Of a stretch of 64,000 bases of DNA, positions 22,236-53,919 are shown piece after piece; positions within the stretch are counted from its first letter, which is position 1; the number at the start of each line of letters is the position of its first letter. The DNA is from Arachnia rubra (lineage in GTDB: Bacteria > Actinomycetota > Actinomycetes > Propionibacteriales > Propionibacteriaceae). The notes below the pieces were generated by a model that was not told where the DNA came from, did no database searches, and was given only the letters and a program-made list of their open reading frames with translations. The stretch spans positions 2,914,001 through 2,978,000 of the forward strand of contig NZ_AP024463.1 of assembly GCF_019973735.1 (NCBI RefSeq), read 5' to 3'. A program made the position numbers and the translations under genes.

Positions 22236-23762
22236 CGCACCAGCCCTCCAAGCTCCGAGAGCACCGCTACAACTCCTTGATGATCGATCTTTCCGTTGCT
22301 GTTCCTGGGAAGTCTCTCAAGGTTCCAGACCCGCTGCGGGATCATGTGCCTGGGCAGCAGCCCTGCACAGTGTCTCTTGAGACCCAAAGCTGGAACGGGA
22401 CGCCCTCCCACGCCGACGATCGCAGCCACGAGAAGTGTCCGCCCCCCAATATCAATTGCCTCGACAGCCGCGTCCAGAACTCCGGGGGTCGACGAGACGG
22501 CTTCCTCGACCTCAGCCAGTTCGACGCGGTGCCCCCCCCGCCTGAATTTGCCGGTCCGCCCGACCACGAAAGATGATGTCCCCGCGTTCGTCGTACTCAC
22601 CGAGATCTCCCGTCGCATAGCTCCGTCGCCCTGCCGCATCGAGGACTGGACGATCCGGCTGTCCCCAGTAACCTGGTGAGACGCAGGCCCCTGTAATGAC
22701 GATCTCGCCGACGAGGCCGGTCTTTGAGACCTGCTCACCGGATTCGTCCATGATCTCGACGCGGACCCCGTCAACAGGTTTGCCCAGGAAAAGCTGCCCG
22801 GAACGCTGGAGAACATCCCCTGCATTCGAGACTGCTGCTATGCACACATTCGTCTCAGTTGGCCCGTAGAGGTTGCCGAGGACGACTTCACCCGGCAACC
22901 GCAGGGCAAGCTCCCGCAACCGTTCCGGTGCGTAGACCTCACCCGCGAAAAGTATGCTCCTCAGAGAGGAGCCGCCCTCTCGGGGAAACTCGGTCCGGCT
23001 TACGAGGATGTCAAGCGCGGAAGGCACGGAATACCAGATTGTGGGATGCCAGCGCCGCAGCAACGCCTCGGTCGCGAGAGGATCCGCACGCAACTGGTCG
23101 GGGATGGGAAGCATCGCGGCCCCGGCGGCCAGTGCAACGAAAATGTCGTGTGTGCTGAGATCAAACGCAACCGATGCATGCGCGGCAAACCGATCCTCAC
23201 AGGTCGGTGTGAAAGTGCGCAAACACCAGCGGATGAAAGAGCTGATATTACGGTGCGTGAGCCGGACGCCCTTGGGATACCCCGTCGACCCGGAGGTGTA
23301 GAGGATTGCGGCAAGATCCTCAGGTCGCAACTCCGGTTCAGGCGTCACAAGCCTTTGGGCGTCGGCTCCACACGGCTCAACGACATTCGCCGCCCACCGA
23401 GCCCCCAGTGATCCTGCAAGGTGGGGGGTCGTGATGATGACCTTTGGCTCCGCGTCGACGAAGATGGCCTCGACGCGCGTTGGGGGATGGGTTGCATCCG
23501 CAGGTACATAACACGCCCCGGAACGCAGCACCCCCAGGATGCTCGAGATGCATGCGCTCCCCTTGGGAAGCCAGACGGCCACCCGGTCTCCGACGCCCAC
23601 ACCCAACGACGTGAGATGGCCCGCAGTCGATGACGCTCGAGCCCACAGCTCCGCATAGTCACATCCATCCTCGCCAAGGATGGCGGGCCTGGAGGCAACA
23701 TCTCGCGTGGGGGGAAGAATGAGCAGAAGTTCACGCTCAAGGCCGCCGAGAAGGCCGTTCAT
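22232..23762 (-). CDS. redM: L-prolyl-AMP ligase RedM/PigI type, frameshifted in a G8 tract
   Basis: This adenylating enzyme activates L-proline and loads it on RedO. The first frame (23762-22512) holds the N-terminal domain with LYTSGSTGYPKGV near residue 157, LYGPTE near 283 and YATGDLG near 382. It then runs out of frame. A second frame (to 22232) carries HRVELAEVEE and the C-terminal catalytic Lys region RNSNGKIDHQG. The switch falls in eight C residues on the plus strand (22532-22539). Removing one restores RADRQIQAGGHRVELAEVE, a normal family sequence. It may be a sequencing error, a phase-variable tract or a true mutation. The start overlaps the redN stop (TGATG). Confidence 0.85.
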
Positions 23763-25372
23763 CAGCGTCCATCCCGTCTGAAACCGATGACATCCGCGGC
23801 ATCTCTCACGATGTCTGCCGCCTCATCCAGATCTCGGGACACGTGGTCTGCAGTGACGCTGATGCGGAGCCGCGCCTGTCCCAGTGGGACTCCGGGAAAG
23901 ACGACGGTCTGGCAGAACATCCCGCGACGCCTGACCTCCCGTCCGAGGGCGAGGGCCGTGGGCTCATCGCCCACGACGACCGGGAGGATGGCACTTTCTG
24001 TCCGCTCAAGATCGAATCCATCGCTGATGAGTCGTGAACGCAGACGGCGAATGTTTTGCCATAGCCGTCCCAATCTGCCTGGCTCAGCCTGGAGTATCTC
24101 GAGCGAGACGATGAGGCCTGCCACAACAGGGGCTGGAAGCGTCGCGGCAAAAACATAGGAGTCGGCGTAGTAGCGGAGGTACTCGATCACGTCACCATCT
24201 CCAGCAACAAAGCCGCCGATGCCAGCAAGGGCCTTGCTCATAGTTCCCAATTCCAGATCAGGTGCGCCCTTCAACCCGAAGTGCTCTGCGGTGCCCGCGC
24301 CGGTGCCGCCAAGAACGCCTGTGGCGTGGGCATCATCGACGAGCAGTCGTGCGCCGTATCGCCTCGTCATCTCCACAAGCACTGGGAGCGGACAAATATC
24401 ACCATGCATGCTGAAGACACCGTCGACAGCGACGAGAACGCCCCCTGGTCGAGCGGCTGCCTCACGCAGACGTCGCTCAAGCGACTCCACATCGTTGTGG
24501 GCAAACGCCATCCTTCGGGCTCCAGAAAGCCTCGCCCCGTCTGTGATGGACATGTGGTTGAGAGAGTCAACAAGGACATGGTCCCCAGGGCCTGCTAGAG
24601 CTGAGATCGCCCCCAGATTTGCCGCATAACCTCCGGGAAAGACAATGCAGGCTTCGCGCCCCTTGAATTCGGCAAGTCTGCGCTCAAGTTCGAGATGAAG
24701 CTTTGTGGTGCCCCCGATGATGCGGCACCCCGTGTTTGTCGCTCCATAGACGCCTGCCGCCTCAGCGATGGCTTCGGACACCCGGGGGTCGTTGGCGAGG
24801 CCAAGGTAGTTGTTTGACGAGAATAGAAGATATTCGCGATCACACCCGGCCTGCATGTCGTGGTAAATTCCGCGCCCACGGAGCCGCCCTGAGGAGGGCA
24901 TCCCATACCAATAGAGCTGTTGCTCCTCCATGGTGCGACGATGCTCGGCGAAACGAGCGGCCTTAGCGAAAAGGTCATGGGCGCCATCTGGACCAAAGTC
25001 TTTCATCGTGACTGCCGTCGAGAGCTTTTCAGCTTCCTCGGTCAAGTCGGCATGATCGAGCCTGAGATCATCCTCCAGAGCTGCTTGTCCAGCTACCTCA
25101 TCGGGGTCAACGCACGCAGCGGGTTCCACGACATCAATGGTTTGGACTTCCTCAAGGATGTCACCAACGGTCTTCACATCCCGCCTAAGGTGGGCACCCA
25201 CGGCGTCCCTTTCGATCTCGATGAGCACAGCCTCGAGAAGCACCGAGTCAATGCCCAAGTCGTCTTCCAACAGGAAGTCCCGAGAAAGTTCCTCAGAACT
25301 GTAGCCCGTGTGACGGGTGAGGACGCGATAGACGGCTGTTTCACCGACCCCAGAGTCCATTGCCAGACTCAT
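23762..25372 (-). CDS. redN: ACP-oxoamine synthase RedN/PigH type, with one intact carrier domain
   Basis: The 536-residue protein starts with an acyl carrier domain (Ser43 in LGIDSV). An acidic linker (about 90-135) follows, then a PLP-dependent alpha-oxoamine synthase with HDMQAG, a VDDAHATGVLG motif and the PLP Lys in TMSKALAGIGG near residue 378. The family joins the pyrrolyl-acetyl unit on its carrier with serine to give 4-hydroxy-2,2'-bipyrrole-5-methanol (HBM). PigH and RedN carry two tandem carrier domains. Here the second is missing or reduced to EDDLRLDHADL without a Ser, and the protein is about 100 residues shorter. The start overlaps redO by ATGA. Confidence 0.87.
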   Translation of the reverse strand: MSLAMDSGVGETAVYRVLTRHTGYSSEELSRDFLLEDDLGIDSVLLEAVLIEIERDAVGAHLRRDVKTVGDILEEVQTIDVVEPAACVDPDEVAGQAALEDDLRLDHADLTEEAEKLSTAVTMKDFGPDGAHDLFAKAARFAEHRRTMEEQQLYWYGMPSSGRLRGRGIYHDMQAGCDREYLLFSSNNYLGLANDPRVSEAIAEAAGVYGATNTGCRIIGGTTKLHLELERRLAEFKGREACIVFPGGYAANLGAISALAGPGDHVLVDSLNHMSITDGARLSGARRMAFAHNDVESLERRLREAAARPGGVLVAVDGVFSMHGDICPLPVLVEMTRRYGARLLVDDAHATGVLGGTGAGTAEHFGLKGAPDLELGTMSKALAGIGGFVAGDGDVIEYLRYYADSYVFAATLPAPVVAGLIVSLEILQAEPGRLGRLWQNIRRLRSRLISDGFDLERTESAILPVVVGDEPTALALGREVRRRGMFCQTVVFPGVPLGQARLRISVTADHVSRDLDEAADIVRDAADVIGFRRDGR

Positions 25373-28261: not shown

Positions 28262-29023
28262 TCAGACTTTAAGCACATCAAACGCCGCACCGCGGCCCGA
28301 GTCATTCAAAATGATCTCGTAGACAGCATGCAGACGCTTTCCAGGAACCATCCCCATCTTCTCTCCAAGGACCGACGTAAAACGGCCAAAGTGCTCAAGA
28401 GCCTCCGCGTGACACCCTCGTCGATAAAGAGCAAGCATGCGCAATTCGCAGTATCGTTCATTCAGCGGACGCTCAAGCACAAGTTCTGCCGTATTATGGT
28501 CCGCGCTGGTGGTGTGTCCGTCAGCAAGTTGTCGCAGCACAAGCCGCTCACACACATCGAGCCGGAGTTGCTCAAGATCTCGGGCATATGCATCACAACG
28601 AGCAAATCCAGCGGTACCCATGAGAGGCGGCCCATACCAGTGCGTGAGAGCTTCGTAGCACTCCGTCACCGACGCCCCCGAAGACCCGAAGACCCTATTT
28701 GCTGCAGCCTTGAAGGCAAGCGCATCAACAGCCCCTGGAGCAAGTTCAAGCCGGTACCCTCCTGGCACTGTGACTATCAGCCCCTTCCCACCACAGCACT
28801 CCCGGATGAGACGACGGATGCGCGCAATCGTTGCCTGCAGAGCGTTATCAGCCGCTTTCGGCGGATCATCGCCCCAGAGTTCGTACTCCAAAACCGATTT
28901 GGGCACCGGACGCCCAGCCTCCATCCCTAGCAGCGCTAGACATACCCGCGCATTGTTTGAGCGGACCGGGTACCAGTCCGAACCATTACGAATGGCAACA
29001 CCGCCCAACAGTTTTAGCTGCAT
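28262..29023 (-). CDS. SARP-family pathway activator (RedD-like role)
   Basis: The 253-residue protein has the compact SARP layout. An OmpR-type winged helix spans about 1-95 (LLGGVAIRNG, RARVCLALLGM-like region, WGDDPPKAADNALQATIARIRR). A bacterial transcriptional activation domain follows, about 100-250 (DPLLMG-like region, AEALEHFGRFTSVLGEKMG). RedD and related SARPs activate antibiotic and prodiginine operons by binding direct repeats near -35. It converges on the SDR gene and marks the right end of the red cluster. An AGGGAG site precedes its ATG. Confidence 0.85.
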   Translation of the reverse strand: MQLKLLGGVAIRNGSDWYPVRSNNARVCLALLGMEAGRPVPKSVLEYELWGDDPPKAADNALQATIARIRRLIRECCGGKGLIVTVPGGYRLELAPGAVDALAFKAAANRVFGSSGASVTECYEALTHWYGPPLMGTAGFARCDAYARDLEQLRLDVCERLVLRQLADGHTTSADHNTAELVLERPLNERYCELRMLALYRRGCHAEALEHFGRFTSVLGEKMGMVPGKRLHAVYEIILNDSGRGAAFDVLKV

Positions 29024-29498
29024 CTAAATCTCCCTAGCTCAACCTCTACCTTACATAGCGCGCTGTCGCGTCACAGCCACCCAACGGCGGCGCCCTGTTA
29101 AATAATTAACCATCCCACAGAAACCAACAGATGTCCATCAGAGAATATGAACAGTACACCACGATTCTAATAATAGCGAACTAATCCGCAAGCTTGCAGC
29201 AGCCTTTGAAGATGTAACCGCGATGGGTTGATACCCACGCAACCAATGAGATAGCCGAATATAATTGAACATTTGAATAATTGTCAAAAAGTTCGGCACT
29301 GAAAATTTGATGAAATATAAAATAAAAAATCTCGAAGAAATAATTAACGGCTACGAGCGACACGCAATTAGCAAACAAATCTACGACATTCAGAACCTCA
29401 AGTAAACAAGCTCCTATGCATAAGTATTCGACGAGGCAACAAAATCCCTTATCAACGCCAGGACGCCGTTAACTATGAAATATGATTCAATCAATGAG

Positions 29499-29570
29499 GC
29501 TTATTCATAGCTGCCAGCAACTGGTTTCTGACAAGGGGTTTCGCTGTTTTCGGCACCCCCACGAATAAGC
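29499..29570 (+). repeat. TTATTCA element, copy 1 (72 bp)
   Basis: The ends are GCTTATTCATAG and CACGAATAAGC. The interior contains TTCTGACAAGGGGTTTC. It aligns end to end with the copies at 50607 and 45765 in reverse complement. It is intergenic, downstream of the minus-strand membrane-protein gene. Confidence 0.85.
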
Positions 29571-29606
29571 ATCAATGAAATCATAAAACCCCATATCAAC
29601 ATTAAA

Positions 29607-29679
29607 GCTTATTCATAGCTCATGGCCACCCGCCAATGAGAAGGGGCTCCGCGACCCCGTCGACCGTCCGTGAATAAGC
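29607..29679 (+). repeat. TTATTCA element, copy 2 (73 bp)
   Basis: The ends are GCTTATTCATAG and CCGTGAATAAGC. The interior contains AATGAGAAGGGGCTCCG. It abuts the stop codon of the 29681-30295 gene, so it could also act as a 3' hairpin for that transcript. Confidence 0.82.
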
Positions 29680-29680
29680 C

Positions 29681-30295
29681 TCATTCTTGAGAAAAGGCAC
29701 CATCAGATAGAAGATGCGAAAGTAAAAGCTTCATAAAATACCCCGGCAAGAACCAGCTCAAATACCAAGCGACTCCTCCCATAAAAGCAGTAAACAAAAT
29801 TAATAAAGAACAGATTCCATAAGCCATAGGACGCGTAAGACTAGGCGGAAAAAAAATACAAATCCCAGCAGCGCAAATAACGCCTGCATAGCTAATTACG
29901 CCAAGTGAAAAACTAAATCCACTATACAGTGCCCCAATGATAATGGGATGCAAATGAAACAGAGTAAAAAATATAAAGCTACCACGCTTAACGCCAGGAC
30001 GATGCCACCATCGCCTAGCAGAATTTGTAGCATTAGCAGTTGCCCCACCAAAAACATCAAAAGCAAGAATACAGATGATAAATAATTTCCAAAAAGAAAA
30101 TTCTTCTCCTAGAGTAAAAAGAATGCCAGCCCCTATCATACCAGTAAAAGCAACAAAATAAGTAATCATGTTCTCTGGCCGCGTAGCGCTAGGACCAACC
30201 AAAAACCCATTGCATCTGCTAATCAGGGTTGCAAAGCGACTTGACAAATCTTTTTTCTCATATCTTAGAAATTGCTTCCTTGACAATTGATTCAA
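29681..30295 (-). CDS. Multi-pass membrane protein of unknown function
   Basis: The frame of up to 204 residues has about five hydrophobic segments (for example near 44-62, 66-84, 104-124, 126-150 and 158-185) and a short loop NATNSARRWWHRPG. I do not recognise the family. It overlaps the SRPBCC gene by 38 bases and is the last gene of the AT-rich operon, so it is probably coupled. No ATG lies near the start; TTG at 30295 is the longest option and the true start is uncertain. Possible roles are transport, immunity or membrane docking of the operon enzymes. Confidence 0.65.
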   Translation of the reverse strand: MNQLSRKQFLRYEKKDLSSRFATLISRCNGFLVGPSATRPENMITYFVAFTGMIGAGILFTLGEEFSFWKLFIICILAFDVFGGATANATNSARRWWHRPGVKRGSFIFFTLFHLHPIIIGALYSGFSFSLGVISYAGVICAAGICIFFPPSLTRPMAYGICSLLILFTAFMGGVAWYLSWFLPGYFMKLLLSHLLSDGAFSQE

Positions 30296-30680
30296 CTAAT
30301 TTCCCCGCTAACGGCTCAAATATCCCGGATAAACTAGGTATTCCCATATCAAATACAAGCGAAAATTCAATCTTCGTACCCACATCAACTTTATAGAATT
30401 CCCATGATCCTTCAAAAACATCAAAATCACCTTTCTCTATAGAAAAACAGATATTTGGTATTCTTAAATCAAGTTCATCTTTTTCAGTCCACCGAAACTC
30501 CTCATCACGAAAAGCAACTCGCCACGAACTTATTCGTGATGATTGATCACAAATATTAGATAGATTAATAGCTATGACGTCCCTAGATCTTCCCAGAGAA
30601 TGCTCGAATTGCCACACAAATTCACAAGTCTGGAGAGGGGACATACCTCGTACATTTTCTATGACCCGGACATCATGCAT
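30258..30680 (-). CDS. SRPBCC/START-like protein
   Basis: The 140-residue protein has the pattern of a polyketide-cyclase or coenzyme-Q-binding-like helix-grip fold. VIENVRGMSPLQTCEFVWQ is followed by successive strands (SRISSWRVAF, RWTEKDELDL, FDVFEGSWEFYKV, GTKIEFSLVFDMG) and a long C-terminal helix. Such proteins bind hydrophobic ligands or act as cyclases and aromatases. A TAGGAG site precedes the ATG, and the start overlaps the aminotransferase stop. The ligand cannot be read from sequence. Confidence 0.68.
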   Translation of the reverse strand: MHDVRVIENVRGMSPLQTCEFVWQFEHSLGRSRDVIAINLSNICDQSSRISSWRVAFRDEEFRWTEKDELDLRIPNICFSIEKGDFDVFEGSWEFYKVDVGTKIEFSLVFDMGIPSLSGIFEPLAGKLVESIVKEAISKI

Positions 30681-31881
30681 CGGAACTCCTATTAAGCCAC
30701 TCAGTTAACATTAAATCGATCGCCCTAATATCGTTTTCCTCTATTATTACCGGAGGAGTAAAACGTATAATATTTGATGAATTAAGTGCAGTACTTGGTA
30801 TAATTCCATAATCCATACAATGAAATAAAAATTCTCCCGAAGCAGCGCCCGGTAAAAACTCTACAGCCCACAGAAGACCTTTTCCCCGAACTTCCAATAC
30901 CTGTGGATCCTTTAAAACACGATTCATAATAAAGGACAATTTACGCCCAAGTTTATCAGCTCTGTCAGGCACTTGGTTATGCTCAAGATAATCCATGACA
31001 GCTAGCACTGTAGCACATGCAGCAGGGGAACCTGCATAGGTACTACTATGCAAAAGTGGATCGCCATCAAATGGTTTATACAGCTCTGATGTTACTGAAA
31101 CTGCGGCAATAGGATAAACACCTCCGGAAAGGACTTTACCGCTCAGAACAATATCTGGATTACACCCGGCGGCTTGGTATTCCCACCAGCAACCCAATCG
31201 GCCAAGTCCCGTTTGGATCTCATCAACAATTAGAATCGCGTCTGCTTCCTGACAGATCTTTCCGAGAGAAGACAAATATCCTTCTGGGGGGAAAACCACT
31301 CCGGCCTCTCCTTGGATAGGTTCAACTATAACTGCTGATCTACCACCATCCCGAATTTTGTGTTGCAACGCATCGATATCGCCGAATGGTACATGTTCAA
31401 CATCTAGGAGCGGTCTAAATGGCGCCTGATAAGTCCCCCTTCCCGATAATGCTAAAGCCCCAGTAGTTTTACCGTGAAAAGCATTATCCATCCCTATCAA
31501 ACGATTACATCCATTAATTTTAGCAATTTTTACGGCAATCTCAGTAGCCTCAGCCCCTGAATTAGCAAAAATAACCTTTGCAAGAGACCCACCTTGAGTA
31601 GACAACAGCTTAGCAGCCGCCTGCCCTAATAATGTATTCGGAACAAGTCGCGTAGACATAGCCATCTTTTGCATCTGGTTAGTAACCGCCTGAAGAACAC
31701 TCTTAGGATTGCCTCCTAAAAGAAAAATCCCGTATCCACCTAAGTTTAAATACTTTCTACCGGATGCGGTAATAAGATACTGCCCTTCATGGGAACACTC
31801 GACTTCGGCAGTAAGCATCCTTTGCATCGTGACCATGGCCGCATTAGTTACTTGCTTTTGAATATCTAAGGGATCTATCAT
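30673..31881 (-). CDS. Class III aminotransferase (PLP)
   Basis: The 402-residue enzyme has the acetylornithine/GABA aminotransferase layout: FANSGAEATEIAVKIAK near residue 105, GKTTGALALSGRG near 145, VDEIQTGLGRLG near 220 and the PLP Lys in SGKVLSGGVYPIAAVSV near 248. The ATG at 31881 has TTAGGAGT upstream and is preferred to the weaker start at 31911. In prodigiosin and tambjamine pathways, PigE and TamH contain a class III aminotransferase domain acting on an aldehyde. Together with the adjacent aldehyde dehydrogenase this could be a split version of that pair, which is inference. Confidence 0.85.
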   Translation of the reverse strand: MIDPLDIQKQVTNAAMVTMQRMLTAEVECSHEGQYLITASGRKYLNLGGYGIFLLGGNPKSVLQAVTNQMQKMAMSTRLVPNTLLGQAAAKLLSTQGGSLAKVIFANSGAEATEIAVKIAKINGCNRLIGMDNAFHGKTTGALALSGRGTYQAPFRPLLDVEHVPFGDIDALQHKIRDGGRSAVIVEPIQGEAGVVFPPEGYLSSLGKICQEADAILIVDEIQTGLGRLGCWWEYQAAGCNPDIVLSGKVLSGGVYPIAAVSVTSELYKPFDGDPLLHSSTYAGSPAACATVLAVMDYLEHNQVPDRADKLGRKLSFIMNRVLKDPQVLEVRGKGLLWAVEFLPGAASGEFLFHCMDYGIIPSTALNSSNIIRFTPPVIIEENDIRAIDLMLTEWLNRSSDA

Positions 31882-31903
31882 TTCAACACTCCTAATACCT
31901 CTT

Positions 31904-33460
31904 TCATTCAACTATACCACGCCAAACAGTAGCTTCAAGGTGCGATGTTCTGAGAAAAGGATAGTTAGCCTCACCATGTACGTCCGCACTAGCACCTCGT
32001 CCACCCTGTGTGGGAAGCCCAGCAATAAACTCAGTATGACTAGAATTAATCTTAATTGTTCCAAAACCTAATGGAATTGAGCTCAACCATTTACAAAAAC
32101 TCATATCAGTAGACCAAATAGACATACGAAGTCTGTGCTTTGTTAAACGAAGTAGATATTCAACAGCTCTCATGCATTCAGACTCATCTCGCTCATCAAT
32201 ATTCACTATTGGCAGAAGAGGGAAAAAGGTTTCTTCTAAAACTATATGAGAGCGACAAGCAGTTTGGATAGAGTACAAAGCAGCGGCAGGTTCAAAAAAG
32301 ACACCATACTTATCCCGCTCACCGAAATCATTTAGTCTTTGACCACCAAATAATAAATTTCCACCTTCCTCATGCACTAGTTCCAAGGCGTCAAGCATAC
32401 CTTTAGAATTCCCCACTGGCGCTAAGAAAGAACCAGGTTTACTGATCTTCTGTGGTCTATAGTTTAACGAATAAATCCGTAGGTATTCCAGAAATTCTTT
32501 AATAACTTTATGGTGCACAAAAGCCACCTTAGGAACTATGCAGATCTGAGCTGAACCCATATAGCATTCAGCTGCAGCTTTAGCTGCATTCCTAACGTCA
32601 GCGTCCCGCCAAACAACTATCGGATCATTACCCGATAATTCTAGGATAGGTTTAATCCCTCGCCTTACACATTCAATTTCAAGTTCCTTACCACGCTCAG
32701 AGCTGCCAATAAAAAATATGTCATCGATTTCTTTAGAATTAAGCCAACTATCAATGGCCATTCTAGGATGGCAGCATAGGAACTGACATACTGGCTCATC
32801 AATCTTAAATTCATCCAGAACAGGAAGTATCACCTCATGAAAAAGCCAAGCAGCTGCATACGAATGATTCCGAGGAGCTTTCATGATAACAGAATTTCCT
32901 GCTGCCAAAATAGGCAATGCCATCGCAGCATTTGCTCCTGCAGCATTACGAGGAAGAACTATTGCAACTACGCCATCGGGTCTCCTTTCAACCTGATTTA
33001 ACCCTATAGGTGTCTCAATGGAAAATCCCATAAATGCAGAAAGCACGTCAAACATACCTTGTCCACCCCCAGCGATTACCCCTGACACCTCCCATGCTGC
33101 CAGGTTTCTCGGATGTCCATCATTCACAAGAGACATAATATATTCTTGAGAACGTTCAACTATACGATTATGCATCGCAACTACTATCTGCTCTCGAAAT
33201 TTTCTAGATCTTTGCGCCCAAACCCCACACGCTTCCCGCGCGGCACTATTTGCTTTTTGGCAATCTTGTGGACTCGCCAAGCCAATACGCCCAAGAACTA
33301 ATTTCTGATCTAGCAAATCACTATCATCACCGCGGTCGAGACGTCGTTTAAGTCTAATCGCACTTGCAGGATTAGACATAAAAAAGTCCGGTTCAATAAC
33401 ATAACTCCACTCGTTATTATTAACGTGGACCCCTTCGACAAAACAATTATAGGTCTTCAT
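31904..33460 (-). CDS. Aldehyde dehydrogenase family oxidoreductase
   Basis: The 518-residue protein has the aldehyde dehydrogenase fold: AIVLPRNAAGANAAMALPILAAGNSVIMKAP-type cofactor region (near 165-195), FFIGSSERGKELE, the catalytic Glu in ELSGNDP near 270 and the catalytic Cys in GSAQICIVPKV near 305. A GGAGGGT site precedes the ATG at 33460. It heads the AT-rich operon with the aminotransferase 22 bases downstream. It could oxidise an aldehyde or, like acylating members, reduce an activated acid to the aldehyde that the aminotransferase would use. The direction cannot be decided from sequence. Confidence 0.83.
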   Translation of the reverse strand: MKTYNCFVEGVHVNNNEWSYVIEPDFFMSNPASAIRLKRRLDRGDDSDLLDQKLVLGRIGLASPQDCQKANSAAREACGVWAQRSRKFREQIVVAMHNRIVERSQEYIMSLVNDGHPRNLAAWEVSGVIAGGGQGMFDVLSAFMGFSIETPIGLNQVERRPDGVVAIVLPRNAAGANAAMALPILAAGNSVIMKAPRNHSYAAAWLFHEVILPVLDEFKIDEPVCQFLCCHPRMAIDSWLNSKEIDDIFFIGSSERGKELEIECVRRGIKPILELSGNDPIVVWRDADVRNAAKAAAECYMGSAQICIVPKVAFVHHKVIKEFLEYLRIYSLNYRPQKISKPGSFLAPVGNSKGMLDALELVHEEGGNLLFGGQRLNDFGERDKYGVFFEPAAALYSIQTACRSHIVLEETFFPLLPIVNIDERDESECMRAVEYLLRLTKHRLRMSIWSTDMSFCKWLSSIPLGFGTIKINSSHTEFIAGLPTQGGRGASADVHGEANYPFLRTSHLEATVWRGIVE

Positions 33461-33989
33461 TATACCCTCCACAGTACATAAAATTGCCACGGATTGCCTT
33501 TTTAATCTTTAGGCATATTTCATAGCCCCCATAAAATAAATTTTACTATCACATCCTCCCTAAAGCAAAACATGCCATACCTGAGTATGCCAGGTCCCCG
33601 CCACATGAGCCTGAAAATTAGGGAAACATTTAAGGCGCCATTCGCAACCTCAGGCGACCGGGCTCTGACAAGGGGTTTACATCCTCCCGAGGTGCTCGTG
33701 AATAACCCCTTTAGATTTTATTAAACGCGAGCTACAGCAGCTTTATAGGCTATCTACGAAAAACTTCAGCTCCGCAAGTACTCTTTCAGAGTAAGTTTAT
33801 TATGGAAATCGCGAATAACCTCCTTATTTTTAACGCTGTTCAGCGTTATATGCACTTGAGACTTACCCGCAGCCGCGGATAACCTGGCTCCGACGAAAGG
33901 GCTGCTGGTGACTGCCGGCTGCTCATAAATTGCTTCAATAATCATGGATAATCAAATTATAGCCTCCCAGTTGATTGAACTCTACGCTT
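33461..33989. other. Intergenic region with a degenerate TTATTCA element
   Basis: There is no gene in these 529 bases. The region separates the second RedH-like gene from the aldehyde dehydrogenase operon. It contains one recognisable element (33634-33707) and further decayed pieces around 33800-33930 (GTTTATTATGG, GCGAATAACC, a GCTCCGACGAAAGGG segment). Confidence 0.65.
33634..33707 (+). repeat. TTATTCA element, copy 3 (decayed left end)
   Basis: The core GGCTCTGACAAGGGGTTTAC and the right end CTCGTGAATAACC match the other copies. The left end reads GCGCCATTCGC instead of GCTTATTCATAG. It is intergenic and its length is as expected (about 74 bp). Confidence 0.7.
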
Positions 33990-36578
33990 TTAATCAAGTA
34001 CTGCGCTTCCAGAGTTTCCATTGACTGTAATGACATCACCGGTACGGAAAAATGATGTCGCATCCCGGGTACTCACAATACAAGGTATGCCGAATTCTCT
34101 TGCGACAATTGCACTATGAGAAAGATACGATCCTTCATCAGTTACGATTGCAGCCGCATCACGTATTAGTGGGGTCCATGAGGCGTCGGTGTATGGGGCT
34201 ACTAAAATTTCTCCAGTTCGAAAATTTCGGAGTTCTCTATCAAGGTTCTTAATCACACACACCCTTCCTTTGATAACCCCGGTGCTTACGGGAAGACCAG
34301 TTATTCTTTTTTCATCGCGATTCAAGTCATTAGATATCATAGTTGGATTCCAATAACCGTAAAAGCTTTGTGGCGGCAGTGGACCTTCAAGGGCAGTCTT
34401 CCAGTCCGCATCACGGTTTGCCAATTCTTGGCCCGAAGGAATACGTGTCACATCGCCTCTTAACGCAGAACGGATCTCTTCAAACTTGCAACACCATATC
34501 TGCTTAGGATCCTCTAAGATATTTTTCTTACATAGACGCTGAGATAATTCGATTATTATCTTCCTAATAATCCAACTAGAAGTAATCATCGCCATACGCG
34601 CTACTTCACGCTGCTCGCTTGTCTTTTTATATAATTTTGCCACTGTCAAAATGATGGCCCTACGTACTCCAGAAATAGGTAATTCATCTATACCTACGGT
34701 TTCTCTCAAAATTCGTGGTCGCTGAATCTGATCCGAATGGTTATTAGCTTCCAATGCTCGGCGAACAAGAAACTCGACGACTTGCTCTGGTTCATCAACC
34801 CATCGGGGGTTCGCGAGTTCCATCTCTTCATGACCTCGCACGCCATGTTCCATAAGAAACGGCTCAAGCGCCTCCGATATAAAATCTTTGCCACCTTTGG
34901 CAGAAGATATTGCGTCCATGGCTTCACCCAGCGGCGCTTGAAGAAGAGCCTCGTAAACACCTGAGTATTCCTTTGCATGTTCAAACAACGCATCTATATC
35001 TTCCGAAGCAGCAACGGTGCGGAGATTTGACATATCAGTTTTTAGATTCTCAATAACTGATGGACCAATTTCAGGCACCCAGACTGACACGACGCCCTCC
35101 AAGAGAGCATGTATCGTGGAAGCATTTATATAATATGGCATATATTGCGCGTTCATGCGGGAAAAATAATCTAATCCCTTCTCAAAGAGCTTTTCTAGAG
35201 CACTGTTTGAATACTTTTCAAGTTTTAAAGATCGCATCAAGGCAAATGCTTTTCGCCTTGATTCATCCATTCTCTTAGCCCGTCTACTAGAATCCACAAT
35301 TTCACGGAAAAGCGACCCTAGAAAGAAGAGAAATGATCTACTAATTTTCCCATAGCCTGAATATATTCCAAAAGGATTGGTAATTCGGGTGGGATCTACG
35401 TCTGGACTTGTAAACCTATTTGTGAAACGAGCAAGATCTCGCATATGAGGCATTTGCGACAACAGATGCGCTGTATAAGAGACATTTAGATAGACATGAT
35501 TTTGCAAATATCCCATATGCAATGACATATCACCATAATCTCGGGCGCCAGTCCAACGTCCACATTTCTCGTGAACATTCATCTGATAATATTTCGCAAA
35601 ATCGACACCGATAGGAGATAACTGCCCGGTAAATATTTCGCCGATATCCATTCTGGACCATAAAGTTCTTGCTTCTGTATAAGGATCAACATTACCAACA
35701 TATGGAGTTCTGGCCTCATCAGATACGACCTGCGTAGTCACAGGTCTTAGTTGCAAATAATAGACACGCGACTTATGTATGGCCCACTCTAGATCAACCT
35801 GTCTTCCTAGATAATTAGCTGCATATTGTGCATCATTAGCAATTTTCAAAACACACGCTTCATCAAGAGCTAAGCCTGATGCACTGGTGGATTCAACAAC
35901 ACTCTTCTGAATACCACCAGAGACCGTTTGATCGAAACGAAATTGCTTTGATCCAATAGTTTGATGCACGACAGTATCCGTCCCAACTGCCACCCAATGC
36001 CGATCCGGAACTGTATGGCCTCCGACAACCACTTCCCCTAATCCATAAGAGGCTTCTACGAGTGCCAGTGATCGGTCAACATCTGGTTTCCCTGAGAAAA
36101 CTATGCCACTACATTCCGCGACTACCATCCGCTGCACGACTAACGAAAGCATTGCACTGTCATTCTGTCCCATAGTTTCTGAATACTTTCGTTGACGCTC
36201 ACTAGTAGCTGATTCCCAACACCGCATAATTGCTTGGCTAAGTTTTTCTATACCTTTAACACCAAGTACCGTTTCAAACTGACCAGCAAAAGATGCCGCC
36301 ACCTGATCTTCTCTTGCCGAGGAGCTTCTAACGGCTAAGTATTCCCCATCAAAGTGCTGATTAATTTCCTCAGCTAGAGTCATCAAATTTAAATTAAACG
36401 TTTGGGAATCATATAGATAAGATGAACCAAAAAGTTCTTTGATAACCGAGTAGGGAATTATGATAGCATCAGGTACTTCAAATCCCAGAGATACTAATTC
36501 GATTAGGCCATCTGCCTTACCTCCATATTCATTACGTGGTATATCTTTAGTTAATTGAATAAAACGATGCTTGTTCAT
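33990..36578 (-). CDS. Second RedH/PigC-like PEP-utilising condensing enzyme
   Basis: The 862-residue enzyme matches redH of this window along its whole length. It has an ATP-grasp region (GGKADGLIELVSLG near 20, AVRSSSAREDQ near 82), a central domain with LWSRMDIGEIFTGQLSPIG near 300 and HMGYLQNHVYLNVSYTAHLL near 350, and a phosphohistidine domain with SYLSHSAIVAREFG near 823. The shared WSRMDIGEIF and YLN.SYTA motifs tie it to the prodiginine condensing group rather than to rifampin phosphotransferase, which has the same domain order. The gene is strongly AT-rich, unlike redH, so it was probably acquired from another source. GGAGGATAA precedes the ATG. It is predicted to condense an aldehyde with an amine or pyrrole. 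Confidence 0.82.
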   Translation of the reverse strand: MNKHRFIQLTKDIPRNEYGGKADGLIELVSLGFEVPDAIIIPYSVIKELFGSSYLYDSQTFNLNLMTLAEEINQHFDGEYLAVRSSSAREDQVAASFAGQFETVLGVKGIEKLSQAIMRCWESATSERQRKYSETMGQNDSAMLSLVVQRMVVAECSGIVFSGKPDVDRSLALVEASYGLGEVVVGGHTVPDRHWVAVGTDTVVHQTIGSKQFRFDQTVSGGIQKSVVESTSASGLALDEACVLKIANDAQYAANYLGRQVDLEWAIHKSRVYYLQLRPVTTQVVSDEARTPYVGNVDPYTEARTLWSRMDIGEIFTGQLSPIGVDFAKYYQMNVHEKCGRWTGARDYGDMSLHMGYLQNHVYLNVSYTAHLLSQMPHMRDLARFTNRFTSPDVDPTRITNPFGIYSGYGKISRSFLFFLGSLFREIVDSSRRAKRMDESRRKAFALMRSLKLEKYSNSALEKLFEKGLDYFSRMNAQYMPYYINASTIHALLEGVVSVWVPEIGPSVIENLKTDMSNLRTVAASEDIDALFEHAKEYSGVYEALLQAPLGEAMDAISSAKGGKDFISEALEPFLMEHGVRGHEEMELANPRWVDEPEQVVEFLVRRALEANNHSDQIQRPRILRETVGIDELPISGVRRAIILTVAKLYKKTSEQREVARMAMITSSWIIRKIIIELSQRLCKKNILEDPKQIWCCKFEEIRSALRGDVTRIPSGQELANRDADWKTALEGPLPPQSFYGYWNPTMISNDLNRDEKRITGLPVSTGVIKGRVCVIKNLDRELRNFRTGEILVAPYTDASWTPLIRDAAAIVTDEGSYLSHSAIVAREFGIPCIVSTRDATSFFRTGDVITVNGNSGSAVLD

Positions 36579-36612
36579 CCGGTTATCCTCCCAATCACAA
36601 CAGAAATCTAGA

Positions 36613-36696
36613 TTTATTCATGGCTAATCTTAAACCTAGCAAATACTAACGAAATCGCCAATTAGAAAACGACTTTGGCTAAGATTTTTGAATAAA
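36613..36696. repeat. TTATTCA element, copy 4 (84 bp, divergent interior)
   Basis: The ends are TTTATTCA (36613-36620) and TGAATAAA (36689-36696), a perfect 8-bp inverted repeat. The interior carries GGCTAATCTTA and GGCTAAGATT, which can pair, but lacks the GACAAGGGG core. Family membership rests on the ends and size. Confidence 0.5.
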
Positions 36697-36770
36697 TTGA
36701 AATTTACTTCATTAGGGTCTTCTAACTTTCAAAGCTCTAGGTTGACAGAAGGCTATGTGGGACATACTGC

Positions 36771-36825
36771 TCACTGAGTAAGCTTCACCTAACCTGGTTC
36801 ATATGTCCTTCTCTTTACTCAGTGA
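36771..36825. promoter_or_regulatory. Perfect 11-bp inverted repeat, candidate operator or hairpin
   Basis: TCACTGAGTAA (36771-36781) and TTACTCAGTGA (36815-36825) are perfectly complementary with a 33-nt spacer. CTCAGTGA recurs at 39693-39700, upstream of the exporter operon. A shared regulator site is possible; a 3' hairpin of the permease transcript is the alternative. Confidence 0.45.
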
Positions 36826-36827
36826 AA

Positions 36828-36908
36828 TTTATTCATATTTCGGACTTCACGGCACCTCTTTATCAATCACAGATTAACGGAGACTTAGCCACACGCATTA
36901 CTGAATAG
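36828..36908. repeat. TTATTCA element, copy 5 (81 bp, divergent interior)
   Basis: TTTATTCA (36828-36835) and CTGAATAG (36901-36908) delimit an interval of the family's usual size. The interior is not clearly similar to the best copies, so this one is tentative. Confidence 0.4.
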
Positions 36909-36968
36909 CCCTCCGGATTGCACATAATAAAATCCATCGATTCTTCTCTACCAATAGAGCTATAATTC

Positions 36969-38732
36969 TCATCTATCAGTACATATATCCCTTCGCTCAA
37001 ATGCCCAAATACCTACAGATAGCGCAACACAAAAAATAACTACCAAAAAGATCCACGCGGTTAGAGGAATATCTATCTTTCCCACATTAATCCATCCAGC
37101 CCCATTCCCAGCTTTTTCAGTTGGTGACCATGATAACAGACTTAAATTCTCTGCCCACTTAGGAAACTTCAATAACGAAGAAAATACAGTATCGAAACCA
37201 GACCATGCTGCAGCCAGCCATGTAACTACGTAAGAAAACCGAGGTGCGATACCTATTGATATTACAGCTACACCTATGCCAGCCATTATACCAGGTAAAT
37301 GCCCAAGAGTACTTATGATTGCTGCACGCATCACCTCTTCTTTGCTGCTTACGTCATCTTTCAAGGTCTGTCCTCCAGTATACCCCATTAAGACACCTGA
37401 CAATCCCAACAGTATCGCTACTGTGCAACTTGCCAGAGACACTCTTCCTAATAATGCACGATGTCTGGAGACACCTACTGATAACTCATTCAAAGCTTGC
37501 CCATTAAGCTCTTCATGCCACCACTTTAAAACACAGCTAAGAGCGAAAACAAGAATAACGATTGTAAGTATCAACCCAAGAAGTTTAAAATATTGTTGTA
37601 TAGGCGAAGCATCATTTTTTGAGAGATCTCCTAGTAACTGGGCCGTTCTGCGATCTTTCTTAATCGCTTCAGTCATTCCTCCAGCCGATAAGCCAACCAT
37701 GGCCGAGGCTAAAAGTATAGCACTAAACCAGGCGACAAATTGATTCAAATCTTTGTAAAAAAGCCAGCCTTCGACTGATTTAACCTTTACCCGAAGTTTA
37801 GAATACGATGAGATATCGGGTATTATACTCCCTCTGTATTCTCGCAATATAAATAAAATTAAAGCTAGGATCGTGCCTGCCAAAATTATGACTAGAATTG
37901 TAGGAAGGTGATTCAATCTATCATCAGTATATGGCGATAATTCATTTCGCCACCCTAGAATGGATAGCCAATTGATTGCCTGAGAAAGCCTTTTTTGATT
38001 CCTATGCCACAACTCATCCGCGATAGCTCTCAAAGCAAAGCATAACCCTACACCGATAAGGGCAAAGCTTCGCACTGCTGAAGAATCGCGCCGAATTTGG
38101 GCACAGATAACACCTAAAAGGCCAAACATAACCCCGATAGCCAAGACAGTAAAGGAGAAAGTAAATGCTCCAATGTGTGTAAGCTCATTACTTTGAGCTA
38201 CTTGCAGCTCGAGTGTGATCCAAACCCCTAAAGCAATAACAATCGGCACAGTAAAAAGTACGAACATACTTGTTACCATGGCCATCCACCGTCTGATCCC
38301 TGCCGCCCACACCATTTCAAGTTGTCCAGAATTTTCACTTACTCGCGTAAGACGCACCGCTAATAACACCATCATTATAGCTGTAAGAAGAAGAACAAAT
38401 GTGCCAGTTTCCCACACAAAAAACTGCCCTAGTGTGCCTGGTTTAGGTAGGTTTCCATAGAGCAATCTTGTACCTGAGTTATCACCCATTTGCTCTACCA
38501 AGGTTTTTCTATCTTCTAGGCCTGGGTAATATGATTTATACGATGGCACTGTAATAGCCACAAGTGCTACTATACCAGTCATCCAGGAAATAATAAAGAC
38601 CCAAGAGCTCCGAACACTAATTGAAATTAACTGTAAAAACTGTTTGATAGACATGAAAATATTCCTCAATAATCCCGCATGTTTCACAGAAACTTCGCTT
38701 ATTCTCTGACTATTTGTTTCAGCAGTATTCAT
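36969..38732 (-). CDS. ABC-2 type exporter permease (polyketide-exporter-like)
   Basis: The 587-residue membrane protein has roughly twelve hydrophobic segments arranged as two halves. It begins with a cytoplasmic region and FIISWMTGIVALVAI. Near residue 135 it contains SENSGQLEMVWAAGIRRW, a motif of large actinobacterial permeases annotated as exporters of polyketide antibiotics. It overlaps the ATPase gene by 4 bases (ATGA), so the two form one transporter. It probably exports, or protects against, the small molecule made by the adjoining AT-rich genes or the prodiginine. Confidence 0.8.
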   Translation of the reverse strand: MNTAETNSQRISEVSVKHAGLLRNIFMSIKQFLQLISISVRSSWVFIISWMTGIVALVAITVPSYKSYYPGLEDRKTLVEQMGDNSGTRLLYGNLPKPGTLGQFFVWETGTFVLLLTAIMMVLLAVRLTRVSENSGQLEMVWAAGIRRWMAMVTSMFVLFTVPIVIALGVWITLELQVAQSNELTHIGAFTFSFTVLAIGVMFGLLGVICAQIRRDSSAVRSFALIGVGLCFALRAIADELWHRNQKRLSQAINWLSILGWRNELSPYTDDRLNHLPTILVIILAGTILALILFILREYRGSIIPDISSYSKLRVKVKSVEGWLFYKDLNQFVAWFSAILLASAMVGLSAGGMTEAIKKDRRTAQLLGDLSKNDASPIQQYFKLLGLILTIVILVFALSCVLKWWHEELNGQALNELSVGVSRHRALLGRVSLASCTVAILLGLSGVLMGYTGGQTLKDDVSSKEEVMRAAIISTLGHLPGIMAGIGVAVISIGIAPRFSYVVTWLAAAWSGFDTVFSSLLKFPKWAENLSLLSWSPTEKAGNGAGWINVGKIDIPLTAWIFLVVIFCVALSVGIWAFERRDICTDR

Positions 38733-39667
38733 CTTTCACCAACTTCGTAGTGGCGTATAAAAAGCTCTTCTAATGATGTCGCTTGACATGTGAAATTACT
38801 TATCCCTTGATTCCCTAAATAAGTAAGGACTCTAGGCATCTTTTCCCTATCAACAGCAAACTTCAATCTAGAAGGCTGCCTAATAGTTTGGATATCCTCG
38901 ATGTTTATCTCAATTTCCGATGCAAGTCTTTTTTGAGATACATCTATGTCGATGTCCGGAGAAACCTCCATTTCTATGATCATGTTAGTGATCTGCTTCA
39001 TCTTAGACATCTCGCTGCTCTCTACTATGAGCCCGTTCTTTATAATGGTAACATGGCTGCATAGCCTCTCTACTTCAGGAAGTAAGTGCGAAGAAAGTAG
39101 GATAGTTTTGCCTTGAGCAACTGCGTCGGTTACTAGCTCTTGGAAAGCCAGTTCCATAAGTGGATCTAAGCCTGAGGTAGGCTCATCTAAGATAAGAAGA
39201 TCCGTTGGGGCAGCAAAGGCTGCCACTAACAATAGTTTCCGGAAATTGCCAGTTGAATACGTTCTAACCTTTTTTGATGGATCAAAAGATAGAATATCAA
39301 TAATTTTTACTTCTGCCCTCCGATCTCTTGACCCTCGTAGACCTGCTAACACGTCAAGAGTCTGTTGACCCGTCAAACTCGGCCAAAGCGCGGCCTCAGC
39401 TGGAATGTACGAAAGCTGGCTATTAATTTCAGGAGAATCCCGAATTGGGTCAAGGCCAAATATACGCAGACGACCGCTCGTAGGTTTATATATGCCTAGC
39501 ATAGTACGTATTGTTGTAGATTTCCCGGCACCATTTGGACCTAGGAAACCATGTACTTCCCCTTCATTTACACTAAACGATACACTATCGAGTGCTTTAA
39601 ATTTTCCAAATAATTTTGTCAGTGACTTTACTTCAATAATGGGAATATTTCTCCCTGCCATTATCAT
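38729..39667 (-). CDS. ABC transporter ATP-binding protein
   Basis: The 312-residue ATPase has Walker A GPNGAGKST near residue 45, a signature variant YSTGNFRKL near 140, Walker B LLILDEPTSGLDP near 158 and the His switch in LLSSHLLPEVERL near 195. A roughly 80-residue C-terminal extension follows, as in the drug-exporter group. The signature lacks the usual SGGQ, which is common in partners of the large 12-helix permeases. It is the first gene of the exporter operon. The CTCAGTGA motif lies upstream. Confidence 0.9.
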   Translation of the reverse strand: MIMAGRNIPIIEVKSLTKLFGKFKALDSVSFSVNEGEVHGFLGPNGAGKSTTIRTMLGIYKPTSGRLRIFGLDPIRDSPEINSQLSYIPAEAALWPSLTGQQTLDVLAGLRGSRDRRAEVKIIDILSFDPSKKVRTYSTGNFRKLLLVAAFAAPTDLLILDEPTSGLDPLMELAFQELVTDAVAQGKTILLSSHLLPEVERLCSHVTIIKNGLIVESSEMSKMKQITNMIIEMEVSPDIDIDVSQKRLASEIEINIEDIQTIRQPSRLKFAVDREKMPRVLTYLGNQGISNFTCQATSLEELFIRHYEVGER

Positions 39668-41041: not shown

Positions 41042-41482
41042 TCACCGGGTTTTCTCAGCTGCCTTCTTCAGGCCAGCCCAGGCGACGAGGGCGACCGCTG
41101 CGGCCAGGGCGACCTTGCGGCGGCATCGTTTCGCCTTCTTCCTGGGGGACGGCTCCGGCTTCCCGGATTTCAGAGCCATTGCGTGATGCCCCTTGGACGG
41201 GACATTGCCGACGGCCCGCTTGGACTTGACGCTGAACAGCGACCGGGACGATCCCAGCGACCCGACGGACAAGAACGAACCCACCGAGCCGATGGACAGG
41301 ATGGAGCCCATGGAGCCGATCGACAGGAATGACCCCACCGAACCGACTGACAGGCACGACCCCAGCGACGCGGCGGACAGGCACGAGAGCACCGATCCGA
41401 CGCTGAGCAGGCTGCCCTTGCTCTTGATGGACAACACCGACTTGTCAGACTCGCCATAGCCGGCTGAACGCTTCGAACTCAT
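41042..41482 (-). CDS. Ser/Gly-rich nonapeptide-repeat protein with C-terminal membrane anchor
   Basis: The 146-residue protein (ATG at 41482, GAGGAAGGA upstream) contains tandem 9-residue units of the type SVGSVGSFL / SIGSMGSIL / SIGSVGSFL / SVGSLGSS, with further imperfect units before them (about residues 14-72). A basic, Lys-rich stretch (KKAKRCRRK) and one hydrophobic helix (VALAAAVALVAWAGL, about 125-139) follow. The regular Ser/Gly/hydrophobic pattern suggests a short beta-solenoid or stacked sheet. I do not recognise a function. It is flanked by the serine hydrolase and the DUF1648 gene, all on the minus strand. Confidence 0.75.
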   Translation of the reverse strand: MSSKRSAGYGESDKSVLSIKSKGSLLSVGSVLSCLSAASLGSCLSVGSVGSFLSIGSMGSILSIGSVGSFLSVGSLGSSRSLFSVKSKRAVGNVPSKGHHAMALKSGKPEPSPRKKAKRCRRKVALAAAVALVAWAGLKKAAEKTR

Positions 41483-47252: not shown

Positions 47253-47645
47253 TTTTCTTACCTCCTTTGGTAGGTTTGGAAAGGGTTTGTGACCTATAAG
47301 ACTCCGGACATCCTCCACGTCTTTGCGCGGTTCACTCGAGGCTAAAACCCTTTCTCTAGCCCCACCCTTTCGAGTTATTCGCCGCGTTTGCTGCGATGAG
47401 GAAACGGTATTTCACCACCAGGCACCCTGCAATACTAAGTCACCGTAAGTTGACCCCCATGCGTCAGAAAGCTGCATCTGCCCTTGCCAGGCCCTCCTCA
47501 GGATTCAGCAAATAGTCACTACAGCGCCTGCCTGCGCGAGCCTTTTGGCGCAATCCGCCGGGCAGTCAACTTTCGACAACCGCGCGAGAGAGTGGCTCTT
47601 CTCTGGTGCTACCATCAGCACGATCATCAACAGTTAGGATCGGCA
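47253..47645. other. Divergent intergenic region between lantibiotic and ABC transporter genes
   Basis: No gene is supported in these 393 bases. The region must hold the promoter of the precursor gene (minus) and that of the transporter (plus). The transporter frame stays open upstream to 47484, but an ATG at 47646 with AGGATCGG upstream is preferred. Confidence 0.5.
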
Positions 47646-48554
47646 ATGAATGAGGTCATCAATGCTGAACACGTGACGCGACGATACAGTCAGTTTGTGG
47701 CCGTGGATCGCGTGTCCTTTCACGTGCGCAAGGGGGAACTCGTGGCGCTCCTCGGTTCGAACGGGGCGGGGAAGACCTCCCTGATGGAAGTGCTTCAAGG
47801 CGCCACCCGCCCAGCCGAGGGGCGGGCTCAGGTCTTTGGCCTGGACCCGATCGCTGATCGGGCGCGCGTGCGTCAACGCACGGGCATCATGCTCCAGGAA
47901 GCGGGTTTCGCCCGTGACCTCACCGTGCGCGAGACCCTGCGCATGTGGGCAGGCACCCTCACCGACCCCCGTCCGGTGGATGAGTCGCTGGGCATGTGCG
48001 GGCTGAGTGAACGCGCGGACATCCGGGTGGGCAGCCTCTCCGGAGGCGAGCGTCGACGCCTCGATCTGGCGATGGCCACCCTTGGTCGGCCTGAGCTGCT
48101 CTTCATGGACGAGCCGACCACAGGGCTCGACCCGGCGGTACGACAAATGACTTGGGACCTCGTGCGCGCGATGCTCGACGAAGGGGCAACCGTGTTGCTC
48201 ACCACCCACTACATGGAGGAGGCGGAAGAGTTAGCCGATCGCCTCCTGATCATGGACGGCGGGAAGATCCTCACCACAGGCACGGTCGATGAGATCGTCG
48301 CCCAGCACCCGTGCGAGATCACTTTCCGCACCGCGGCCCTCCCGGAGCAGCGGTTGGCTGCCCTCCCCCAGCTCAGCGCCCCGGTTTCCCACTACCGAGG
48401 TACCACCAGGTTGTTGACCTCGGATCTGCACACGACCCTGCGGGAGCTGCTCTCCCTCGCCGACGAGCACCGCATCCACCTGGATGGCCTCAACGCGCGG
48501 GCCGCCTCGCTGGAGACCGCGTTCCTCGCACTGACCAATAGGAGCTCGAAATGA
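47646..48554 (+). CDS. ABC transporter ATP-binding protein, DrrA/CcmA type
   Basis: The 302-residue ATPase has Walker A GSNGAGKTS near residue 39, LSGGERRRLDLA near 133, Walker B LLFMDEPTTGLDP near 154 and LLTTHYMEEAEEL near 187, with a C-terminal extension of about 80 residues. It forms an operon with the permease (4-base overlap). It lies divergent from the lantibiotic precursor; a role in self-protection is possible but unproven, because such drug-type transporters are common. Confidence 0.9.
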   Translation: MNEVINAEHVTRRYSQFVAVDRVSFHVRKGELVALLGSNGAGKTSLMEVLQGATRPAEGRAQVFGLDPIADRARVRQRTGIMLQEAGFARDLTVRETLRMWAGTLTDPRPVDESLGMCGLSERADIRVGSLSGGERRRLDLAMATLGRPELLFMDEPTTGLDPAVRQMTWDLVRAMLDEGATVLLTTHYMEEAEELADRLLIMDGGKILTTGTVDEIVAQHPCEITFRTAALPEQRLAALPQLSAPVSHYRGTTRLLTSDLHTTLRELLSLADEHRIHLDGLNARAASLETAFLALTNRSSK

Positions 48555-49336: not shown

Positions 49337-49458
49337 CCCGCGTCAGGATCGAGGGTCTGCGTGAGGTGAAGGGCGGGTTGCCGAGAGGATGCACATTCGG
49401 CGGCCCCTCGGGTGCGTTTCCAACGCAGGCCCCAGTCTGCACTGGTGGGTTGACTAGA

Positions 49459-53916: not shown

Positions 53917-53919
53917 GGA

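Follow-up and report, generated by a model that had tools for sequence, protein, structure and literature searches.

A low-GC gene block with a second RedH/PigC-family ligase beside the prodiginine operon of Arachnia rubra: a candidate tambjamine-type branch

We analysed a 64,000-nucleotide stretch of the Arachnia rubra genome (hereafter the window; contig NZ_AP024463.1, positions 2,914,001 to 2,978,000), in which an AT-rich block of seven minus-strand genes (29681-39667) lies beside a prodiginine (red) operon. A preliminary description of this DNA had proposed that an aldehyde dehydrogenase (ALDH) and a class III aminotransferase of the block make an amine, which a second ligase of the RedH/PigC family joins to the 4-methoxy-2,2'-bipyrrole-5-carbaldehyde (MBC) of the red cluster. 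The coordinates that it gave were confirmed, with all the named genes on the minus strand, and Pfam domains were assigned to five of the seven. In transcription order, the block holds the following genes:

38729-39667, minus strand: DrrA-like ATPase of an ATP-binding cassette (ABC) exporter, of low GC (Pfam ABC_tran; best NCBIfam match drrA, 200.5 bits, below the cut-off of 312).
36969-38732, minus strand: probable ABC-2-type permease, with several transmembrane segments by hydropathy and no Pfam match; 4-base overlap with the ATPase gene.
33990-36578, minus strand: second RedH/PigC/TamQ-family ligase, 862 amino acids (aa), assigned by Pfam (PPDK_N and PEP-utilizers), NCBIfam, tree and residue analysis.
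31904-33490, minus strand: ALDH, a relative of those in azoxy and tambjamine amine modules (Pfam Aldedh; active-site Cys and Glu kept).
30673-31911, minus strand: class III aminotransferase (Pfam Aminotran_3; lysine motif kept); 8-base overlap with the ALDH gene.
30258-30680, minus strand: SRPBCC protein (Pfam Polyketide_cyc) with the module SRPBCC motifs FR, RWTE.D, GDF..F.G.W and GIPSL..I..P.A.
29681-30295, minus strand: 204-aa membrane protein, with several transmembrane segments by hydropathy and no Pfam match; last gene of the overlapping ALDH run.

All seven reading frames are intact, and six of the genes sit in two overlapping runs. The ligase gene stands between these, with gaps of ~390 bases to the permease gene and ~500 bases to the ALDH gene; the SRPBCC gene overlaps those of the aminotransferase and the 204-aa protein by 8 and 38 bases, respectively. 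The five-gene set of the preliminary description is present, and the 204-aa membrane protein has to be added to it as part of the same run. The AT richness was borne out, with a GC content of 0.420 in the block versus 0.606 at 3.5-28 kb and 0.633 at 40-57 kb, and with a GC content at third codon positions of 0.28-0.35 in the block genes versus 0.63-0.64 in four red operon genes and 0.91 in ileS. This composition suggests that the block was acquired horizontally.

The genome of the window is a single contig of 3,316,972 bases; A. rubra DSM 100122T, cited as red-pigmented and from the gingival sulcus, has 3,316,958 bases and 64.2% GC (PMC8638593). In three congeners (G617, G618 and G070), ileS (window 285-3410) and the gene at window 57217-58530 adjoin each other, which makes the region of ~3.5-57.2 kb an accessory segment in this genome; it measures ~54 kb from ileS to an aminotransferase gene and has three GC levels within. 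Among named records with red genes, the nearest is that of [Pseudopropionibacterium] massiliense (L045/G070). Its red cluster is syntenic with the one here over ~24 kb, SARP gene included, but occupies a different genomic place. In its red region (60 kb, E ≤1e-6), none of the seven block genes was matched, except for a 35% cross-match between the ligase and RedH. Nothing but repeats was found at the block ends, no tRNA was found in the window, and promoter and terminator scans gave chance level only. The repeats are a 15-base perfect inverted repeat at the block edge (29493-29685), with arms 163 bases apart, and a 25-base near-repeat at 29517 and 33654-33678, the latter upstream of the ALDH run; they are possibly an element remnant or a regulator site.

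The second ligase is full length and has the RedH/PigC/TamQ plan, with an ATP-grasp (PPDK_N) and a phospho-His (PEP-utilizers) domain. As the preliminary description had stated, the phospho-His is conserved: H821 is aligned with His in all nine rows printed. The NCBIfam models score it at 692 bits for RedH, 558 for PigC and 265 for Rph, far from the RIF_Ptrans_rph cut-off of 999, and these scores rule out a rifampin phosphotransferase, which had been raised as an alternative. The equivalog cut-offs of RedH (1350) and PigC (1300) are missed as well, as they are by the genome's own red RedH (890 and 707) and by a Pseudoalteromonas A25 ligase (P0108; 1013 and 831). These scores place the second ligase outside the RedH and PigC equivalogs, although the family itself extends beyond those cut-offs.

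Relatives of this protein are few. In a search of ~5.8 billion proteins (7,999 candidates scored), the closest one, P0002, shares 50% identity, and the remainder reach at most 39% among the matches listed (the best 120 of 613). A scan across 84,980 species genomes that depended on one of two exact peptide patterns, and that possibly left out the window's own genome, gave 64 redH-type loci; the best match in any segment was 40%, and a ligase of this type was found in none of them. A plasmid search with the ligase returned 6 records at 30-32% identity. RedH-type proteins occur in 2 of 147 genomes of the family (E ≤1e-60) and in 2 of 391 of the order (E ≤1e-100), the same two genomes, of which that of the window alone has a second copy. 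A second match is also rare among 50 RedH-bearing genomes hand-picked from the 64 loci: 48 of them have a single match (E ≤1e-100), the two others being Nocardia genomes with a weak second match (360 and 369 bits).

The ligase had been called a paralogue of the red enzyme, which holds only in the broad sense; a recent duplication is ruled out by the 35-37% identity to the genome's red RedH and by the long separate stem in the tree. In this quick tree of 32 hand-chosen rows (from the 64 loci and 120 proteins, six ingroup rows of an earlier set being left out), the second ligase and P0002 form a pair (support 100) on a long stem, beside an Arachnia/Prauserella RedH clade at an SH-aLRT (approximate likelihood-ratio test) value of 88, a node without a star. 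A clade with three Pseudoalteromonas ligases was rejected (approximately unbiased test, p-AU 0.0024). The ligase keeps 141 of the 176 near-invariant family columns. Family-specific residues, defined as those that are near-invariant across 27 family rows and that none of 3 outgroup rows has, are kept at 45/56 by both the second ligase and P0002. In the second ligase, those kept include four residues of the previously noted WSRMDIGEIF motif (S308, M310, G313 and I315). The same test gave 56/61 for the genome's red RedH, 56/56 for the S. albus tambjamine-type ligase, and 55/57, 56/56, 54/56 and 55/56 for four other family rows. On these grounds, we regard the second ligase as a diverged deep lineage with the phospho-His in place, and as no standard RedH.

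The closest relatives of the ALDH and the aminotransferase are P0122 (50%) and P0242 (52%), respectively; the next aminotransferase matches reach at most 48% over shorter parts and at most 45% over most of the length. Since P0002 and P0122 are both listed with a 30,101-base contig, ligase and ALDH probably travel together. ALDH relatives (E ≤1e-60) are present in 7 of 392 other genomes of the class and in 11 of the 50 RedH-bearing genomes (at 14 places), which makes 20 distinct places outside the window, JJ36 being common to both sets. The stretch around each was inspected. Relatives of both the aminotransferase and the SRPBCC protein stand beside the ALDH at 16 of the 20 places; L173 has an SRPBCC relative alone, and L130, L136 and L174 have neither partner. 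Thirteen of these 16 places also hold a VlmO-type gene, accompanied by a VlmA type at 11 and by a VlmB type at 10 (a tentative name, the Pfam match to AurF being below cut-off). The VlmO-type protein of L133 has D51, H82, H110 and D114, counted on its sequence, which are reported as essential for VlmO (PMC11705231).

The other three module places, in Streptomyces albus NRRL B-1811, Streptomyces sp. JJ36 and S. alfalfae, have MBC-type genes and a ligase on the same contig, with the order SARP, ALDH, aminotransferase, SRPBCC; no RedL was found in the stretches read. They are the only 3 of the 11 RedH genomes with such an ALDH that carry it on the RedH contig, ~15-16 kb from RedH. The ALDH-aminotransferase-SRPBCC set is thus a recurrent module. 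The preliminary description had named wide occurrence of the block in genomes without a bipyrrole pathway as a refutation: the block with this ligase is in none of the 64 loci, whereas the three genes of its amine part are also found where no bipyrrole genes are close by. For the amine part, this goes some way towards that refutation, yet it points to amine supply. For the aliphatic amine of the azodyrecins, a dehydrogenase (Ady2) followed by a transaminase (Ady4) is proposed, untested there, in PMC9379638. Given this proposal and the recurrence of the module, the run of four genes in the block is best understood as a supply route for an alkylamine.

One part of the earlier proposal had to be given up, namely that the ALDH and the aminotransferase are a split PigE/TamH pair: the reductase part of PigE and TamH is acyl-ACP-reductase-like (ACP, acyl carrier protein) and not an ALDH (PMC8341465, PMC9594044). 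A related reading is that the two enzymes give an amino-ketone closing to another monopyrrole by PigE-like logic, which the ligase would join to MBC as a second prodiginine. The aminotransferase indeed reaches 279 bits against a section of the PigE model (cut-off 850), and its match to the PigE structure entry 4PPM has 205 bits. However, the acetylornithine (293) and putrescine (287) models score slightly above PigE, the ALDH is no PigE-type reductase, Pfam shows neither a thiamine-type (PigD-like) nor a PigB-like gene in the seven-gene block, and the module's relatives belong to azoxy and tambjamine-type clusters, which makes a second prodiginine highly improbable.

It is also very unlikely that we are dealing with an ordinary catabolic pair, for example of putrescine or gamma-aminobutyric acid type, next to a decaying or idle ligase copy. 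This would suit the top NCBIfam matches (acetylornithine/putrescine aminotransferase and succinic semialdehyde dehydrogenase, each below cut-off) and the divergence of the ligase, but not the intact reading frames in their overlapping runs, the phospho-His and near-invariant positions that the ligase keeps, its 50% relative elsewhere, probably beside the 50% ALDH relative, or an SRPBCC partner of the amine-module kind.

Relatives of the 204-aa protein lie near the S. albus and S. alfalfae clusters (24% and 27%), and 16 of 393 other genomes of the class have one (E ≤1e-4). In 8 of 13 stretches around such relatives (L137-L149) there is a gene from a single cluster, some members of which match the TetR-type gene of the window. 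An identity as a VlmO-type N-N enzyme was discarded at a profile probability of 0.5%, a weak test with small alignments. The permease is matched at 23-24% in four Streptomycetaceae redH loci (L010, L012, L019 and L021), each also with a 43-45% match to the ATPase.

A probable source of MBC lies next door. The red operon, which also has a phosphopantetheinyl transferase-like protein, and the regulator gene beside it comprise:

3700-4917, minus strand: PigM/RedV-like oxidase of 4-hydroxy-2,2'-bipyrrole-5-methanol (HBM), a tentative name; no Pfam match, 22-34% matches in 15 redH-type loci.
5566-6762, minus strand: methyltransferase (profile matches).
6759-7097, minus strand: HapK/RedY-like protein (Pfam HapK).
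7104-8267, minus strand: RedW-like prolyl-carrier-protein dehydrogenase for MBC (NCBIfam RedW 361 bits, below the cut-off of 650).
8245-10584, minus strand: RedX/PigJ-like ketosynthase for MBC (NCBIfam PigJ 240 bits, below cut-off; Pfam).
10518-13157, minus strand: RedH, the first ligase, 879 aa (NCBIfam RedH 890 bits, below cut-off; 72% to P. massiliense).
13154-14218, minus strand: methyltransferase (profile matches), at what we take to be the RedI/PigF place.
14970-22235, minus strand: assembly line with adenylation, acyl carrier, ketosynthase, acyltransferase and aminotransferase domains (Pfam architecture), presumably RedL.
22512-23762, minus strand: adenylation domain (profile match), at what we assume to be the RedM place.
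23762-25372, minus strand: aminotransferase-fold HBM synthase (profile matches), presumably RedN/PigH.
28262-29023, minus strand: SARP regulator between the red operon and the block (Pfam; GC 0.57; 67% identical to its P. massiliense counterpart).

We expect the RedL-type line to make a 2-alkylpyrrole. The genome has one full-length copy of the RedN-type protein, a second match falling within RedL. Identities to the P. massiliense red cluster are 72% for RedH, 77% for RedW and 67% for the SARP. The PigM/RedV-like gene lies at one end of the red cluster in the window (3700-4917) and at the other end in P. massiliense (G070 C1:2776278-2777225), and the two copies share only 26% identity, versus 58-83% for other red genes.

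The explanation that we favour, and hold to be probable, is that a tambjamine-type branch was gained horizontally, in the form of this block, beside the prodiginine operon, and that in it an alkylamine is joined by the block's own ligase to MBC of the red operon. The ALDH would convert a fatty acyl precursor to the fatty aldehyde, and the class III aminotransferase would convert this to a primary alkylamine, predicted to have a fatty chain length, with the SRPBCC protein as a putative lipid-binding helper. The 862-aa ligase, using ATP via its phospho-His, would then activate MBC and attach the amine as an enamine, and the ABC pair may export the product. Meanwhile, RedH of the red operon would join the same MBC to the RedL-made monopyrrole, so that one aldehyde pool would feed two ligases. 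The ligase is the only nameable amine-using enzyme in the block, and since the module recurs in three Streptomyces bipyrrole clusters in which no RedL was seen, joining the amine to MBC is the best explanation for it; this central part of the preliminary proposal is independently backed in this way, and also by the 13 VlmO-type places, which likewise call for an alkylamine.

From their layout, we take the three Streptomyces clusters to be of BE-18591 type. BE-18591 and its cluster are reported from another Streptomyces in PMC10960970. Like these tambjamine-type clusters, the locus has a RedH-family ligase, MBC-type genes, a SARP, an ALDH, a class III aminotransferase and an SRPBCC protein, and two of the three share a relative of the 204-aa protein with it. 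They differ in that they have one ligase and no RedL seen, whereas here there are two ligases and a RedL-type gene (14970-22235); the JJ36 cluster also has ketosynthase and FabH types, which the block does not. Identities between the block and these clusters are 36-37% for the ligase, 34-35% for the ALDH, 40-41% for the aminotransferase and 34-42% for the SRPBCC protein. The trees of the ALDH and the aminotransferase lend no support to an origin of the block from these clusters; for the ligase, a clade with them was not rejected (p-AU 0.11). It should be noted that the Streptomyces tambjamine-type ligases (L006, L007 and L059) pass the RedH equivalog cut-off (1587-1598 bits versus 1350), and automated annotation may therefore label them as undecylprodigiosin ligases.

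In the tambjamine YP1 (tam) cluster of Pseudoalteromonas tunicata, MBC and a fatty amine are joined by the PigC-family TamQ, and transporter genes are present (PMC6667630); the block shares the ligase family and the transporter genes, and the joining is proposed for it. The tam amine comes from TamA, TamT and TamH, the last of which combines an aminotransferase and an acyl-ACP-reductase-like domain in one fused protein (PMC9594044), whereas the block has a lone 412-aa aminotransferase and a separate PF00171 ALDH. The second ligase resembles the undecylprodigiosin RedH in its domain plan, phospho-His and most family residues, and differs from it in its low identity to the genome's own RedH and in its RedH score. 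Finally, the aliphatic azoxy clusters, of the azodyrecin, elaiomycin and valanimycin kind, share the ALDH, the class III aminotransferase and the SRPBCC protein; they have VlmO-type and mostly also VlmA- and VlmB-type genes, whereas Pfam matched none of the VlmA (PF09924), VlmO and VlmB types in the seven block genes, the only part of the genome searched for them.

Several observations weigh against the favoured explanation. The ALDH Cys and Glu are both kept in 32 of the 32 rows shown, but this Glu is typical of oxidising ALDHs, and the sequence would allow either direction, reduction or oxidation. No ketosynthase, FabH or acyl-activating gene was found among the block genes, and the JJ36 relative of the 204-aa protein lies away from its cluster. 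In trees, the block's aminotransferase falls outside the groups of Streptomyces or azoxy cluster aminotransferases, and its ALDH pairs with P0122 at a distance from the remaining 30 rows. The place of the ligase varies among the topologies kept, which include a constrained clade with the Streptomyces tambjamine-type ligases (p-AU 0.11) and a first-branching place beside the outgroup (p-AU 0.09). The co-location of P0002 and P0122 rests on equal listed contig size, P0242 being listed with other contigs, and the assemblies are fragmented in the 8 RedH genomes that have the ALDH on another contig. Deep, separate lineages that share one layout could stem from an independent tambjamine branch of old age, or else from a module that was put together more than once.

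Moreover, 11 of the 56 family-specific residues are changed in both members of the ligase pair, versus 0-5 in the six family rows, and since the S. albus tambjamine-type ligase keeps all 56, amine use would not explain this divergence, and another partner is possible. The ligase could then belong to an MBC-independent pathway, the amine being joined to another aldehyde or acid and the red operon being a neighbour by chance or by shared regulation. The long stem in the ligase tree, a GC content that suggests a separate origin (0.42 versus 0.61 in the red operon) and the P. massiliense red cluster without the block agree with this. We nevertheless consider it unlikely: no other aldehyde-supplying pathway was seen in the block, in most redH-type loci of the 64-locus scan there are further genes of the red or MBC type, the block itself has MBC-type genes as neighbours, and the same amine module lies beside MBC genes in three Streptomyces clusters.

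With slightly better than even confidence, we would extend the tambjamine-type explanation to a forked bipyrrole pathway, in which one MBC pool would serve RedH for the tripyrrole and a deeply separate, two-sequence ligase subfamily for the N-alkyl enamine, fed by a plug-in amine module of the azoxy kind. Among the open-licence papers listed in our searches (titles and abstract openings), we found nothing on the block or on an Arachnia prodiginine. If the forked pathway is real, a tripyrrole cluster would gain a second product through one ligase and a portable amine module, a second ligase subfamily would be at hand for studying the choice between pyrrole and amine partners, and a tambjamine-like bioactive metabolite would be predicted from a culturable human oral species, which is also a host of Saccharibacteria (PMC8638593). 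The recurrence of the module alone ties tambjamine-type to azoxy-type clusters in actinobacteria.

Beyond the block, the accessory segment has five copies of a 27-base tandem-like repeat (window 41241-41402). Further on, window 47484-56529 holds an ABC pair (47484-49336), a nitroreductase-like protein (53209-53916), a YcaO protein (53920-55233), a TipAS/MerR regulator and two unknown proteins, and by gene content it looks like a cluster for an azoline peptide, a ribosomally synthesised and post-translationally modified peptide.

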